From Pseudomonadota bacterium (GTDB lineage Bacteria; Pseudomonadota; Alphaproteobacteria; SHVP01), in the NCBI GenBank assembly GCA_027622715.1, contig JAQBYN010000021.1:1-51287 (forward strand): DNA of 51,287 nucleotides, read 5' to 3'. The notes below the pieces were generated by a model. That model was not told the DNA's origin. It saw only the letters and a program-made list of their open reading frames with translations, and did not search any database. Within the stretch, counting starts at the first letter, position 1. The number at the start of each line of letters is the position of its first letter. This document shows, in pieces, positions 1 through 6,975 of the stretch. A program made the position numbers and the translations under genes.

Positions 1-966
1 GTACCACTCGTTAATGCGCTCGGCTGCGTCACGGTCAGTTGCAGCGAACCCGCGCGGCTTGTTGGCTTGCTGCATACGGTTCTCGGCTGGGAGATCGCGG
101 CGGAGGGCGTTCTCGGTGCCGAACTTGAAGGGCTATGGGGGATCGCGCCGGGGAGCGCGGGGGCCAGTTTCACCGTGCTGCGGGCGCCGGGCACAACGTT
201 TGGGATGATCCGCGTGGTCTACGGCGCCGAGCGCCGCCCGACCCGCCAGATTGGCGCCCGCTGGAGCGGCATGGAAATCGTCGTCATGTCGGATGTCGAT
301 GGGCTGCACGCAGCCCTCGATGCCCATCCCGACTTCGATGTTATCGCGCCGCCGCACAGCTTCGACTTCACGCAAGCCGGTTCAAACATTCACCGGTCTT
401 TTCTGGGGCGCATTCCGGGCGGCACGCATATCGTTTTCACCATGGCGGTCACGGCGCCTAAGCTGAAGGGCCGCATATTTCCGTCGGCCGACGTTCGGGT
501 CGGCCAAGTCTTCGCCGCCCATCTGGTGGCGACGGACTATCCTCGCAGCTTCGCGTTCTACCGTAACACCCTTGGGATGGTGCCGTTTCTCGATGTCCAT
601 CTTGAGCAGGGCGATTGGCACAAGACCTGGTCGCTGCCCGAGGGCGCGGCGGTGGACCTCAGTATTTTGCGCGGCGGCGACCCAACCAGCCGCCAGGGCA
701 GCGTCGAGATGCAGGGCTACGACGACCGCTACATCGACCCGGCCGTCCTGGTGCCGGACCGCTTCGACGGCGGCACGTGCCTGACGACGTACACCGCCGC
801 GGTCGATCTCGACGTGGCTTTTGCGGCGGTGGCGGCGCACGACGATGCGACAATCCTGTCGCGGCCGCAGGCCATGCCCGGTGCGCCCTATGACGATGCC
901 CGCAGTTTCGCCTTTCTTGGGCCCAGCGGTGAGCGGTTCGAAATCTGCGAACGATTCGCGCTCTGA
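1..966 (+). CDS. Two-domain VOC (glyoxalase-fold) protein, 5' partial
   Basis: The reading frame is open from base 1, so the true start lies left of the window. About 321 residues are visible. The protein appears to be two VOC modules: one early (GCVTVSCSEPARL, then VLGWEI), and a second opening with FAAHLVATDYPRSFAFY, then NTLGMVPF. VOC proteins include glyoxalases, extradiol dioxygenases and epimerases that use a metal held by His and Glu. The second module keeps a His in its first strand and a Glu near the end (GERFEICERF), so metal binding there is possible. Substrate is unknown. A second two-VOC gene lies at 5231-6193, with two tandem-hydrolase genes between, which suggests one catabolic or modification pathway (inference). 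Confidence 0.72.
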   Translation, partial: VPLVNALGCVTVSCSEPARLVGLLHTVLGWEIAAEGVLGAELEGLWGIAPGSAGASFTVLRAPGTTFGMIRVVYGAERRPTRQIGARWSGMEIVVMSDVDGLHAALDAHPDFDVIAPPHSFDFTQAGSNIHRSFLGRIPGGTHIVFTMAVTAPKLKGRIFPSADVRVGQVFAAHLVATDYPRSFAFYRNTLGMVPFLDVHLEQGDWHKTWSLPEGAAVDLSILRGGDPTSRQGSVEMQGYDDRYIDPAVLVPDRFDGGTCLTTYTAAVDLDVAFAAVAAHDDATILSRPQAMPGAPYDDARSFAFLGPSGERFEICERFAL

Positions 967-1709: not shown

Positions 1710-3407
1710 ATGGGCATCGAGCCTGCACATCCGACGATTCGCCGTCACTTCGTCACTGTCGGCGGTGAGCGCCAGGTTCATTACCGGCGCGCCGGTAAGG
1801 GACCCGCCGTGGTGCTGCTGCACCAATCGCCGACATCGTCGCGCGAGCATGTGCCGCTGATCGAGCGGCTGACGGGCGACTTCACCGTGATTGCGCCCGA
1901 CACGCCGGGCAACGGGCTGTCCGATCCGCTGCCGGGCGAACAGCCATTGGCCGAGGATTACGCGCATGCCTTAGCTCAGACTTTGGATGCGCTAGGGATC
2001 AAACGATGCGGCCTGTTCGGCACGCACACGGGTGGCGTAACCGCGACGGAGTTCGCGCGGCTTTATCCAGACCGTGTCAGCGTGTTGATCGTTGACGGCA
2101 TTACATGTTGGACGGAAGAAGAACGCGCCGACGCGGTGGCAAACTACTTCACGCCGTTCGCCCCGAGTTGGGACGGCAGCCATTTGACGTGGCTGTGGTC
2201 GCGCATGCGCGAGCAAACGATCTTCTTTCCGTGGTACGAAAAATCGCTGGCGGCGCGTTTGGATTACGACCTGCCGTCGCCCGATCGTTTGCACAACGGC
2301 CTGTTGGAGTTTCTCCGCTCGGGCGATGAATACCGCAAACCATACAAGGCCGCCTTTCTTTTTAAGGGCGAGGAATCCATTCCCGCCTTGACCTGCTCCG
2401 CGCATCTGATGGCGCTCTCGTCGGACGTGCTGTTCGGCCATTTTGACCGTTTGCCGCCGCTAGCCGACAACATCAAGATCGAACGGTTCGGCACCAGTCG
2501 GTCCGAACTCCTCGACCGCACCGTCGCGGTACTGGGCCAATATCCAGGACAAGACGGCGTGCCGGGCCCGGATGCGCCAGGACCGATCGTCGGGCGCACC
2601 TGGCAGGACTACGCCGATGTCGACGGCGGGCAGCTGCATATGCGGCGCGGCGCAGGGAGCGGCCGCCCGGTGCTGGTGCAGCACGATGCCGCCAGCGACA
2701 ACAACGTGGTGCGCATGGCGGCCGAGGGATTCGTCGGCAAACGACCGGTCATCGCGTTTGATCTGCCGGGCAACGGCGAATCCGATAACACCATTGGCAC
2801 CGACAAGAACGCCATCACCTGCACGACCTACGCCGAGGTGACGCGCCAGGCGTTGGCGTCGATGGGGTTGGACGACGTCGACTACCTTGGCACCTGGGGG
2901 TCGGGCTTTACCGGGTTGGAGCTGGCCAAAATGCAACCCGGTTTGGTCAAACATTTGGTGATCGCCCACGTCATCTATCACCCCGATGCGTTGCGCCGCG
3001 AGTTGCTCGACAACTACACACCCGAACTCAAGACCGACTGGTGGGGCGGTTATCTGTTGATGTGCTGGCACGCGATGCGCGATCAGGGTTTGTACTGGCC
3101 CTGGTACAACCGCACCCGTGACGGCATCCTCCAGCGCGAGCCGTATGTCGATCCGGCCATGGTGCACCGCCGTGTTGTCTCGCTGCTGAAGTGCTGGAAC
3201 ATGTGGCAGGCCCATTACGGGGCGCACTGGAAATACGACGCGCAGGGTGAATTGGGCCGCGCGCCGATTCCCGTGGCCTTAACCGGTCCCGACAACCATC
3301 CCGGTACCGGCGATGCGCTCAAGGATCACGGCGCACTGCAGCGTGTCACCACCGGCAATGACATGACGGCCTGGGCTGGCGCGCTGCTGCCGTTCTTGGA
3401 CAGTTAG
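1710..3407 (+). CDS. Tandem alpha/beta-hydrolase-fold protein lacking the nucleophile serine (copy 1)
   Basis: 565 residues made of two alpha/beta-hydrolase domains (about 10-280 and 300-565). Each domain has the early Gly-Asn-Gly turn (DTPGNGLSD; DLPGNGESD). The N-domain has an HQSP oxyanion-type loop and the C-domain has QHDAASD. The nucleophile elbow, normally G-x-S-x-G, reads GTHTG at residues 104-108 and GTWGSG at 395-400, so His106 and Trp396 replace Ser. I also see no His at the usual C-terminal catalytic position of either domain. Both domains share a cap-region motif (W-G-x-x-L...R-x-Q-x-x-x-P-W-Y), so they arose by internal duplication. The next gene is a close paralogue starting 2 nt later. 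Function is unknown: a pseudo-hydrolase, lyase, cofactor-free oxygenase or binding protein are all possible. Confidence 0.85.
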   Translation: MGIEPAHPTIRRHFVTVGGERQVHYRRAGKGPAVVLLHQSPTSSREHVPLIERLTGDFTVIAPDTPGNGLSDPLPGEQPLAEDYAHALAQTLDALGIKRCGLFGTHTGGVTATEFARLYPDRVSVLIVDGITCWTEEERADAVANYFTPFAPSWDGSHLTWLWSRMREQTIFFPWYEKSLAARLDYDLPSPDRLHNGLLEFLRSGDEYRKPYKAAFLFKGEESIPALTCSAHLMALSSDVLFGHFDRLPPLADNIKIERFGTSRSELLDRTVAVLGQYPGQDGVPGPDAPGPIVGRTWQDYADVDGGQLHMRRGAGSGRPVLVQHDAASDNNVVRMAAEGFVGKRPVIAFDLPGNGESDNTIGTDKNAITCTTYAEVTRQALASMGLDDVDYLGTWGSGFTGLELAKMQPGLVKHLVIAHVIYHPDALRRELLDNYTPELKTDWWGGYLLMCWHAMRDQGLYWPWYNRTRDGILQREPYVDPAMVHRRVVSLLKCWNMWQAHYGAHWKYDAQGELGRAPIPVALTGPDNHPGTGDALKDHGALQRVTTGNDMTAWAGALLPFLDS

Positions 3408-3409
3408 CC

Positions 3410-5113
3410 GTGGGCACCGACGCGCCGATCCCTGGCATCCGCCGCCATTTCGTAACCATCGGCGGGACACGGCAGATTCATTACCGCCGCGCCGGGACTG
3501 GTCCCGCCGTGCTGCTGCTCCATCAATCGCCCAAGTCGTCGCGCGAGCATATTGCGTTGATGCAGCGCTTGATGGATCGCTTCACCTGTATCGCGCCCGA
3601 CACACCGGGCAATGGTAATTCCGATCCGCTGCCGCTGGCCGATCCCGACATGGCCGATTTCGGCGACAACATCGCGGCGTTTCTTGATGCGCTCGGGATC
3701 GACAAGATCGCGGTATACGGGTTTCACACTGGCGCATCGGTCGGCGCGGCGTTTGCGGCGCGCCATCCGGACCGGGTGCATATCGCGATCCTCAACGGTC
3801 TTGTCACGCTCAACGCTGAGGAGCGCGCGGACATTCTGGCCAACTACCTGACGCCGTTCGAACCGCGCTGGGACGGCGGGCATCTGGCGTGGCTGTGGGC
3901 GCGGCTGCGCGAGCAGACTGTGTTTTTCCCGTGGTATCGCCCCTCGCTTGCCGGCCGCATGGGCGGGCCGATGCCCGCGCCGGAAATTTTACACGACGGG
4001 GTGATTGAGTTTCTGCGGTCGGGTGATGCATACCGTGGACCTTACGGCGCGGCCTTCAAGCTCGATGGCGCTGCGATGGCCGCCGCGATGCGCTGCCGGG
4101 CAATTATCTGTGCGTCGGACTGGGATCCGACCGTCAACTATCTGGGCCGGCTGCCGGCGAAGTTGCCCGACGGCGTCAGCGTGGAACGGTTGGGCGACCG
4201 CCGCGGCGACGCCGTCTACGCGTGGGTTGCTGACCTGTTGGCCCGTCACGCCAAAGGAACGCCGACACAACCACCCGCACCGACCGCAATCGCCGACGGC
4301 ACGTGGCAGGATTTTGCCGATGTCGACGGTGGCCAGCTTCACATGCGCCGCACCGAAGGCAAGGGTCGGCCGTTGCTGGTTCAGCACGATGCCGCCAGCG
4401 ATAACCGCATTGTCCACCGCGTGACGCAGTCGCTTGCCGGAGAAAGGCCGGCCATCGCGTTCGATATGCCGGGCAATGGCGAGTCCGACAACACCATCGG
4501 TACCGAGAATGTCACGGTGGCGCGCTACGCCGACGTCGTTGTGCAAGCGCTCGATTCTCTGGGGCATGAGTCCGTGGACTTCTACGGCATGTGGGGCGGT
4601 GGCCTCGTTGGTCTCGATCTCGCGGTGCGGCGTCCGGATCGCATCAACAAACTCGTTATGTCGAATGTGCTGTATTTCACGCCGGCGGACGCGAAGGCCT
4701 ACCACGACAATTATACGTTCCCGATCGAGATCGACTGGTTTGGCGGCCACTTGATCAAGTGCTGGATCGCGATGCGCGATCAGGGCCTATTCTGGCCGTG
4801 GTACGAGCGGACGCGACAGGGCGCCATTCGGCAAGAGCCCTACATCGACACGGCGATGGTGCATAGCCGCGTGGTATCGATGCTGAAGGCTGGTGACATG
4901 TGGCGACATGCCTACCGCGCGCACTTTGCCTACGAAACGGGCGACGCGCTGGCGCAGGTCAAGCGGCCGACGTTGCTCGGCTCGCCGCTTTGGGATCCGA
5001 ACTATCCGCACGGCCAAGCGGCGCACAGCGCATACGCGCATACCGCTTGGCTCGATCTCCCGCCCGACATGGCGGATTGGGCCCCGGCGTTCCTGCCTTT
5101 CCTCGACACCTAA
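3410..5113 (+). CDS. Tandem alpha/beta-hydrolase-fold protein lacking the nucleophile serine (copy 2)
   Basis: 567 residues, a paralogue of the gene upstream along its whole length and in the same two-domain layout. It starts at GTG 2 nt after the previous stop, so the two are almost certainly cotranslated. The elbows read GFHTG (His106) and GMWGGG (Trp395), the same Ser-to-His and Ser-to-Trp changes as copy 1. The loops HQSPKSSREH and QHDAASDN are kept almost unchanged between copies. The preserved substitutions at matching positions argue that these proteins are under selection and not decaying. They may form a heterodimer (inference). A 20-bp perfect inverted repeat follows at 5125-5144. 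Confidence 0.85.
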   Translation: MGTDAPIPGIRRHFVTIGGTRQIHYRRAGTGPAVLLLHQSPKSSREHIALMQRLMDRFTCIAPDTPGNGNSDPLPLADPDMADFGDNIAAFLDALGIDKIAVYGFHTGASVGAAFAARHPDRVHIAILNGLVTLNAEERADILANYLTPFEPRWDGGHLAWLWARLREQTVFFPWYRPSLAGRMGGPMPAPEILHDGVIEFLRSGDAYRGPYGAAFKLDGAAMAAAMRCRAIICASDWDPTVNYLGRLPAKLPDGVSVERLGDRRGDAVYAWVADLLARHAKGTPTQPPAPTAIADGTWQDFADVDGGQLHMRRTEGKGRPLLVQHDAASDNRIVHRVTQSLAGERPAIAFDMPGNGESDNTIGTENVTVARYADVVVQALDSLGHESVDFYGMWGGGLVGLDLAVRRPDRINKLVMSNVLYFTPADAKAYHDNYTFPIEIDWFGGHLIKCWIAMRDQGLFWPWYERTRQGAIRQEPYIDTAMVHSRVVSMLKAGDMWRHAYRAHFAYETGDALAQVKRPTLLGSPLWDPNYPHGQAAHSAYAHTAWLDLPPDMADWAPAFLPFLDT

Positions 5114-5230: not shown

Positions 5231-6193
5231 ATGGCGACACCCTTGGCGGGTGGCGGGCCACTGAGCTTTGCGGTTCTCGGGGTCGAGAACATGGCCGAGT
5301 CCCTGGGTTTCTATCAGGGGATCGTGGGCATGGAGGTGATCGGCGAGGATATGTTGCGCGGTCCGCGGTTCGCCGGCCACTGGCGCGTGCCGCCGGAAAC
5401 ACGTGCGCACGCCGTCCTGCTTGAGGCGCGCGGCTTTCCGGTCGGGCGAATCATGTTGTTGAGCTTTATTGTGCCGCGCCGTGAACGGGTCCGTGCGCGG
5501 CGCGAGCGCCGCATGATCGGCTTGATGAACCTCAACTTCTACGTAGCCGACATCCACTCGGCGCATCGCGATCTTTCTGCCAAGGGCTATGAATTTTGGT
5601 GGCCGCCCCGGCAGCATCAACTTAGCGCCGGGGTTGGACAGGAAACCGGCGCACTTCTGGAGGGGCCGGATGGCGTTATCCTCAACCTCATTCAGCTCGA
5701 CAGCACTGATGAGACCACGCGGATCGGCCGTATGCGAAAATACTTCCGCGAAGAGGGTGCGACCCGGACCGGTTTCTCGCCGGTGGTTACTTCGGCGCAT
5801 GGCGTTCGCGCGCGCGATAAGGCGCTGCCGATCTACCGAGATCTGTTGGGACTTGAGGTGGTCATCGACGAACCGCTAGGGCCGGCAGACGAACGCACCC
5901 ACTGGAGATTTCTACAAGGCGATCATCCCTACGGTAAAATCGCGTTGGGCCAAGCGTTGAACTATGAGGTCGAAGACCTCACCCCGTTCGCCGTGGCCCC
6001 CAATATCGGGTACCTCGCGCAAGGCTTTGAGGTGGCGAATATGGACGCGGCGCTCGCGTTCTGTCGCGATATCGCCGCCGAGATTTATTCGCCGCCCGAC
6101 GAAATCGATTTGCCCGGCCTGGGGCGAACCGTCTCGATGTTGGTGCGCAACCCGGGGTCGGGCGCGCTGATGCAACTTATGCAGAAGTCTTAG
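5231..6193 (+). CDS. Two-domain VOC (glyoxalase-fold) protein
   Basis: 320 residues with two VOC repeats. Domain 1 covers about 10-155 (FAVLGVENMAESLGFYQGIV, then GLMNLNFYVADIHSAHRDL) and domain 2 about 175-318 (KALPIYRDLLGLEVV, then VANMDAALAFC). The usual metal ligands look weak: the first strands of domain 1 lack His, and the terminal Glu position reads ILNLIQL and ALMQLMQ. It may be a divergent enzyme or a binding protein. It lies 117 bp after the tandem-hydrolase pair on the same strand and is preceded by a hairpin, so it may be a separate unit. Its pairing with the other two-domain VOC gene at 1-966 suggests a shared pathway, but this is inference. Confidence 0.78.
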   Translation: MATPLAGGGPLSFAVLGVENMAESLGFYQGIVGMEVIGEDMLRGPRFAGHWRVPPETRAHAVLLEARGFPVGRIMLLSFIVPRRERVRARRERRMIGLMNLNFYVADIHSAHRDLSAKGYEFWWPPRQHQLSAGVGQETGALLEGPDGVILNLIQLDSTDETTRIGRMRKYFREEGATRTGFSPVVTSAHGVRARDKALPIYRDLLGLEVVIDEPLGPADERTHWRFLQGDHPYGKIALGQALNYEVEDLTPFAVAPNIGYLAQGFEVANMDAALAFCRDIAAEIYSPPDEIDLPGLGRTVSMLVRNPGSGALMQLMQKS

Positions 6194-6207: not shown

Positions 6208-6975
6208 TTACAGCGCGGGGCGGTGGACGCCGTGTCCCGGGACGGGTACCGGCCCAAGCGCTTCGCAACCGGCGACCCACCGCGAGGCAACCTCCCCGAG
6301 ATAATGTCCAAACAGACGCGCGGTTTCGCGGTCTGCCTCGGGCGGCGTGCGGTTCGGCGGTTCGTCGATATTGGCCTGGGTCATTAGACCGAGATACCCG
6401 GCCAAACGGTTGAGGTCGTTTTCGCTGCCACCGGATGAATAGTGGCCGCCGAGCAGGTGGACGGGAACCCAGGTCATCCCCATCTGGGCCGCGAAAATAG
6501 AGAGGCGCTGCAAGGTGTGGAGTTTGTCTCCGCTGCGACCGGCGGATGACGTGAATCCCGCCGCGAGCTTGCCGGTCCACATGCGGTCGAGCCACACCGG
6601 GCCCGACGTCAATTCAATGAAGGCCTGCATCTCGGTGGAAACCCCGCCGCATCCCTTGACGCCGCGCCGCAGATTGAAAGTCCACGTTAGCGTCGCCGAA
6701 TCATAGGTCCATGATTCGGCAAGACGTCCCTCGAAGTTCTGAAAATCAAGTATCCGAACGCCCTCTTCGTTGACGTGGCTAAGCGGATAGTAGACCAGCG
6801 GTTCGAGCAGGTTAGCCAGGCCCGTCTGGGTCGCCGGCGATGCCGCGGTCGGCCCGTCGTAATCCAGCCCTGGCGGGACATCGGCCGTCAAAATGAGTGC
6901 CTCTTTCGCCGTGGCGGACAGGCCAACGGATAAAGACAAAACGAGCCCTAAAGCGAACGTCCTCGAGATATTCAT
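6208..6975 (-). pseudogene. Chimeric remnant: ABC solute-binding protein N-terminus fused to flavodoxin-like reductase C-terminus
   Basis: A 255-residue open frame with two unrelated halves. Residues 1-23 are a signal peptide (FALGLVLSLSVGLSATAKEA). Residues 24-110 match the start of peptide/nickel-type (SBP_bac_5) binding proteins: LANLLEPLVYYPL, GRLAESWTYDSATLTWTFNL, RRGVKGCGG. After Gly-Gly at about residue 112 (near base 6641) the text switches to a WrbA/NADPH-dependent FMN reductase C-terminus: EMQAFIELTSGPVW, GKLAAGFTSSAGRSGDK, then FAAQMGMTWVPV. The SBP is missing about 400 residues and the reductase its FMN-binding N-terminal part. The simplest reading is an in-frame deletion that fused two genes on the same strand. 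It is probably non-functional, though still open. Confidence 0.82.

Follow-up and report, generated by a model that had tools for sequence, protein, structure and literature searches.

The locus examined here raises the question of what chemistry, if any, is carried out by two adjacent genes that encode alpha/beta-hydrolase domains with neither of the residues on which esterases depend. The alpha/beta-hydrolase fold is among the best studied of enzyme folds, and a 2024 classification describes its elbow as bearing a Ser, Asp or Cys nucleophile or none, with the catalytic His placed after strand beta8 (PMC11878206). The two genes, designated A and B, lie near one end of the window, a 51,287-nucleotide stretch of alphaproteobacterial DNA.

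Two adjacent paralogs each encode two alpha/beta-hydrolase-fold domains

Genes A and B are adjacent paralogs whose products are 51% identical. They and their domains are laid out as follows:

1710..3407, + strand: gene A, a two-domain GxHTG-family protein of 565 aa (open reading frame with an ATG start at 1710; two PF00561 matches; AlphaFold model)
1743..2564, + strand: N-domain of A, residues 12-285 (VIA-align to 2xua)
2607..3404, + strand: C-domain of A, residues 300-565, elbow G-T-W-G-S-G (Pfam, model and alignment)
3410..5113, + strand: gene B, the paralog of A, 567 aa (open reading frame; GTG start 2 nt past the stop of A)
3443..4264, + strand: N-domain of B (alignment and model)
4310..5110, + strand: C-domain of B, residues 301-567, elbow G-M-W-G-G-G (VIA-align to 4dgq)

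The original prediction of two hydrolase domains per gene was borne out by three lines of evidence: Pfam PF00561 matched two stretches in each protein, and both AlphaFold models and VIA-align comparisons agreed. The AlphaFold2 model of A had a mean pLDDT of 95.0 and a pTM of 0.93 (input of 40 sequences), and that of B a mean pLDDT of 94.1 (input of 30 sequences). Residues 12-277 of A aligned with the enol-lactonase 2xua (Z 25.6, 242 residues aligned, rmsd 2.5 Å), and residues 300-567 of B with the haloperoxidase-type structure 4dgq (Z 27.8, 251 residues aligned, rmsd 2.6 Å). Whole-domain matches of the models were to PcaD-like, haloperoxidase and dehalogenase structures, and the eight strands with an elbow after beta5 that define the alpha/beta-hydrolase fold were present.

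Histidine and tryptophan occupy the predicted nucleophile positions

The residues on which the functional question turns are these:

2025..2027, + strand: His106 of A, codon CAC, at the nucleophile position of G-T-H-T-G (in the model it follows strand 100-105 and precedes helix 107-118)
2181..2183, + strand: His158 of A, in the cap motif DGSHLxxxW (conserved in 30/30 of the A/B-type subfamily)
2424..2426, + strand: Asp239 of A, at the canonical acid position after beta7 (28/30 in the subfamily; beta7 is 231-236 in the model)
2895..2897, + strand: Trp396 of A, C-domain elbow (after strand 390-395 in the model)
3725..3727, + strand: His106 of B, codon CAC, of G-F-H-T-G (sequence and model)
4592..4594, + strand: Trp395 of B, C-domain elbow (sequence and model)

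In the models of both N-domains, beta5 spans residues 100-105, residue 106 forms the turn and a helix begins at 107, so His106 is predicted to sit exactly at the nucleophile position. The C-domain beta5 strands (390-395 in A, 389-394 in B) are followed directly by Trp396 and Trp395. The positions first read from the sequence were thus exact, and the models confirmed the location of the elbows. No GxSxG, GxDxG or GxCxG motif was found at an elbow in A or B. In the predicted structures, the nucleophile position, where a Ser, Asp or Cys would have spoken against a serine-free reading, is held by His106 or Trp396/395. As for an alternative Ser, Asp or Cys elbow elsewhere, A offered none, and the GASVG at 108 in B sits inside the helix that follows the elbow.

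The acid position after beta7 is filled by Asp239 in both N-domains. The residues following N-domain beta8 (255-260 in A, 256-260 in B) are GTSR and GDRR, respectively, so the base His is missing, in agreement with the claim that no catalytic His lies near the domain ends. Nor do the N-domains of A and B have the His-Asp/Glu dyad, with its His after beta8, of the cofactor-free dioxygenases and carboxy-lyases of this fold. With both the Ser/Asp/Cys nucleophile and the canonical base missing, canonical esterase chemistry is not expected, as had been proposed. Automatic annotation as "alpha/beta hydrolase" ascribes serine chemistry to proteins incapable of it and calls for caution.

A histidine elbow marks a large family expanded in an uncultured order

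Both N-domains carry the G-x-H-T-G elbow, the HxSPxS loop and the DG[STGA]H cap motif by which we delimited a family, referred to here as GxHTG, and A and B probably belong, as cytosolic proteins, to this large branch of the alpha/beta-hydrolase superfamily. A search with a profile of related domains (A2) detected 44 family domains in ∼29 genes of the 3.15-Mb source genome at E < 1e-28, separated by a clear gap from ordinary hydrolases at 1e-21. Across ten genomes of the source organism's order, 9 to 74 family domains were found per genome (E < 1e-30); this order of uncultured bacteria has multiplied the family, to as many as 74 domains in one genome. Clear members (E < 1e-35) were detected in ∼30 of 385 sampled alphaproteobacterial genomes, sporadically outside the source order, and 7 of 398 genomes sampled across the phylum held a member at E < 1e-30, two of the seven lying outside Alphaproteobacteria. 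In all, the GxHTG motif was present in about 20 or more alphaproteobacterial families. A scan of contigs with gene A as the query returned one congener only.

The 2024 classification contains no family with His at the elbow (PMC11878206). A full-text search of open-license papers did not return a His-elbow family, although an earlier description elsewhere is possible, and none of the PDB alignments listed was to a solved structure with a GxHTG elbow. The family therefore appears to be undescribed, a variant within a known fold superfamily that falls outside any named enzyme family. It offers a way into the metabolism of an uncultured order whose genomes carry it in heavily expanded numbers.

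The elbow histidine is maintained, and the C-domain elbow varies

Of the N-type and single domains in which both scored columns were occupied, 87/96 carried His at the elbow, nearly always followed by Thr, a frequency that is not due to chance. By class, the elbow His was present in 47/50 A/B-type N-domains, in 30/39 single-domain members and in 10/10 of each half of a second double-domain subfamily, in which a His after beta8 was often kept as well. About one in ten N-type or single members had K, R, M, A or E instead; His is thus not strictly required for the function of the family. No ordinary serine triad was found among the N-type or single-domain members, the other observation that would have spoken against the original prediction.

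Asp occupied the acid column in 83 of the same N-type and single domains, and most of the His-bearing exceptions had an Asp one column earlier. Both Lys106 members of the subfamily (n = 2) had Ser239, as did one Ala106 member. For an association between His106 and Asp239 we counted about three independent pairs in favor and none against among N-type and single domains, too few to reach significance when relatedness is taken into account; no such association of positions 106 and 239 was seen in C-domains. The cap His158 was also kept in C-domains lacking the elbow His (as H, rarely Y or F), and its column was Q or Y in many single-domain members.

The C-domain elbow of A/B-type proteins followed no comparable rule (n = 50: G 16, W 10, Q 7, N 5, H 5, E 3, and K, S, Y and A 1 each). 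In a phylogenetic tree, A/B-type N-domains formed one group but for one or two stray rows, and C-domains grouped together next to HTG single-domain proteins; since the two domains form separate lineages, their fusion is old. Elbow Trp was limited to A, B and their orthologs. The tree, which has some long branches, was built by a quick search and is supported by SH-aLRT values only; we do not rely on its deep branching order. Taken with the counts, it suggests most simply that the elbow His is ancestral and has been maintained, and that Trp, which both A and B inherited, is one among numerous substitutions at the C-domain elbow. The original prediction had called a tandem His/Trp pairing in two coupled genes unusual. 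This view did not hold: GxHTG is the family norm, and the variability of the C-domain elbow across the family rules out a coordinated His/Trp pair.

The survey also turned up departures from the common elbow types. The C-domain of L038:131-1831 was the only one surveyed with a serine elbow (GESLG), and it lacks a base His after beta8. Ala or Glu elbows (GEAVG, GTEIG and GVEIG) in L166:6469-8266, L045:5942-6790 and L056:10002-10886 represent further non-serine side branches.

Both domains are under purifying selection

Between the congeners G000, G001 and G002, each domain was 80-92% identical in amino acid sequence, with synonymous sites near saturation. Values of pN/pS, obtained by NG86 counting, were 0.07-0.14 for N-domains and 0.11-0.22 for C-domains: purifying selection acts on both. 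Within the A/B subfamily, N-domain pairs were more alike than the corresponding C-domain pairs in 94% of cases (mean identity, 44% versus 34%). Residues conserved in at least 93% of 30 A/B-type N-domains included, among others, His24, Tyr25, His38, Ser40, Pro41, Asp64, Gly104, His106, Thr107, Gly108, Tyr146, His158, Trp163, Arg167, Pro174, Trp175, Arg183, Tyr208, Tyr212, Phe216 and Asp239. Selection had been proposed from the retention of the loops around the active site and from the occurrence of the same changes in both copies. The first argument is upheld by this strong conservation and by the low pN/pS; the second fails, because Trp is an inheritance common to the A/B lineage and the identical change reflects common descent, not two coordinated changes.

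Neighboring genes suggest a catabolic setting

Two genes flanking the pair encode VOC-fold proteins:

1..966, + strand: two-domain VOC protein upstream of A, its 5' end cut by the contig edge (Pfam)
5231..6193, + strand: two-domain VOC/glyoxalase-fold protein downstream of B (Pfam and neighborhood comparison)

The A-B pair lies side by side in G000, G001, G002 and G006 and a few hundred bases apart in G004. The downstream VOC gene follows the pair in the first four of these genomes, and its homologs adjoin family genes at locus L043 and at L139, the latter in another bacterial family. The upstream VOC protein had no blastp relative in the neighborhood set and resembled the VOC proteins beside other family members in no more than a weak alignment. 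Farther downstream, the minus-strand frame at 6208-6975 joins, in frame, the N-terminal ∼109 aa of a peptide-ABC substrate-binding protein to the C-terminal end of a flavodoxin-like protein. Its counterparts in the congener G001 are two whole adjacent genes on the minus strand (L049, 13188-13886 and 13876-15585), so that ∼1.6 kb is missing at 6208-6975, with a ∼6-nt overlap at the joint; the fusion is either a real deletion or an assembly join.

Over ∼77 family loci, the commonest neighbors were parts of peptide-type ABC transporters, FAD_binding_4 flavoproteins, methyltransferases, TonB receptors, CaiB, AMP ligases, SDR and VOC proteins, hydantoinases and amidohydrolases, some of these names having been read from sequence. 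We read these neighborhoods as those of a catabolic toolkit. A FAD_binding_4 gene stood directly beside a family gene, on the same strand, at 11 of the ∼77 loci (L034, L036, L062, L138, L139, L141, L152, L160, L162, L168 and L169), spanning about nine bacterial families; all 11 of the FAD_binding_4 genes found near family genes were immediately adjacent and codirectional. For one of them, the nearest solved relatives were D-2-hydroxyacid dehydrogenases, followed by the vanillyl-alcohol oxidase group. This arrangement suggests a conserved two-protein operon, and the recurrent pairing with an oxidase gives a concrete two-protein system. Operons with a homologous set of genes, for an amidohydrolase, an AMP ligase, a hydrolase-like protein and a FAD oxidase, differ at the elbow: it is GxHTG in L034:6318-8147, but GxKTG, with Ser in the acid column, in L036:6161-7960 and L062:8942-10711.

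A proposed role for the elbow histidine, and its alternatives

The data show the fold, the positions of the elbows, conservation throughout the family, phylogeny, operon context and purifying selection. From these we infer enzyme status, a His-Asp dyad, a reaction type, a substrate class and a role for the C-domain, and we hold the proposal as a whole at slightly less than even confidence. The N-domain would be the working domain, its predicted pocket lined by the HxSPxS loop after beta3, the G-x-His106-Thr107-G elbow, the cap motif W-D-G-S-His158-L-x-x-x-W and Asp239 after beta7. His106 would stand in for the missing catalytic imidazole, which canonically follows beta8, and would be polarized by Asp239, with the backbone oxyanion site presumably retained. 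It would most likely act as a general base, a role that we prefer to that of covalent nucleophile because a plain His nucleophile leaves designed hydrolases stalled at the stage of a stable acyl-enzyme (PMC9863031). The candidate substrate is a small organic intermediate of catabolism, perhaps an aromatic one. The C-domain is most likely a structural or regulatory pseudo-domain, a copy fused long ago whose elbow residue has been lost, with Trp396/395 in the former nucleophile position. More broadly, the family may represent a natural, serine-free collapse of the triad to elbow His and beta7 Asp, whether of base type or His-covalent, serving an uncultured alphaproteobacterial order as a catabolic toolkit of tens of paralogs per genome; we regard this generalization as possible but doubtful. 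If true, a natural branch of the fold with a conserved elbow His, dozens of copies per genome and strong selection would constitute a new catalytic arrangement.

Four other explanations were weighed. The strongest, though we think it unlikely, is that both domains are those of pseudoenzymes, which would bind ligands or act as scaffolds to carry or sense intermediates of catabolism, His106 being in contact with the ligand. Known non-catalytic alpha/beta-hydrolase families provide precedent (PMC11878206), and such a role would accommodate the loss of both nucleophile and base His from A and B, the substitutions at the elbow in some members and the clear divergence of C-domain elbows. However, tens of paralogs per genome, in many bacterial families, retain His-Thr-Gly and the pocket motifs in varied catabolic operons and with no constant partner, a pattern that would sooner be expected of a conserved chemical step whose substrates change.

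It is improbable, in our estimation, that His106 is itself a covalent nucleophile, forming an acylated or alkylated imidazole whose release is aided by Asp239 or cap residues. The exact nucleophile position and the retained neighbors of the oxyanion site fit this idea, as do some members of the second subfamily in which elbow His and beta7 Asp are accompanied by a post-beta8 His, a triad altered only from Ser to His. Yet this post-beta8 His is lacking in both N-domains of the pair and in many other members, and the stalling of designed plain-His enzymes weighs against it as well (PMC9863031). More improbable still is a pocket metal bound by His106, His158 and Asp239 which would make the protein a lyase, isomerase or hydrolase that depends on metal. 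The strong conservation of three N-domain residues of ligand type, and the lack of Asp239 in Lys106 members, would be expected of such a site, but the persistence of His158 in C-domains without an elbow His points to a structural role in the cap, and many single-domain members have Q or Y in its place. Finally, decay of A and B into pseudogenes, which the missing canonical catalytic residues might suggest, is contradicted by pN/pS values of 0.07-0.22 with synonymous sites near saturation and by the maintenance of orthologous neighboring pairs in five genomes, and we give it almost no weight.

Comparison with known systems

We compared A and B with four groups that share their fold. The 3-oxoadipate enol-lactonase PcaD (TIGR02427, 2xua) is the closest solved fold to the N-domain of A and among the closest to the C-domain of B; TIGR02427 is among the best NCBIfam profiles for both proteins, and the catabolic context is shared. 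However, PcaD is a one-domain Ser-His-Asp enzyme, whereas A and B have two domains, a His or Trp elbow and no base His, and their scores of 62.1 and 96.9 bits, respectively, lie far below the curated TIGR02427 cutoff of 255.85. Haloalkane and fluoroacetate dehalogenases and epoxide hydrolases share with A and B the HxxPxS loop and a D-x-P-G-x-G-x-S-D segment, and their nucleophile stands at the equivalent residue, D106 in DhaA. Theirs is an Asp nucleophile with a base His; both A and B have His106 in its place and no base.

The meta-cleavage-product C-C hydrolases BphD, HsaD and DxnB2 were the top PDB sequence matches of gene A, and VOC-fold neighbors like those of the pair occur in many ring-cleavage gene clusters. 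The Ser nucleophile and base His of these hydrolases are, however, absent from A and B. The fourth group, that of the carboxy-lyases, CGI-58 and the cofactor-free dioxygenases, likewise keeps the fold with the catalytic serine lost or not employed as a nucleophile. Carboxy-lyases use a D/E-H dyad whose His comes from the loop after beta8 (PMC11878206), whereas the GxHTG family presents its His at the elbow.
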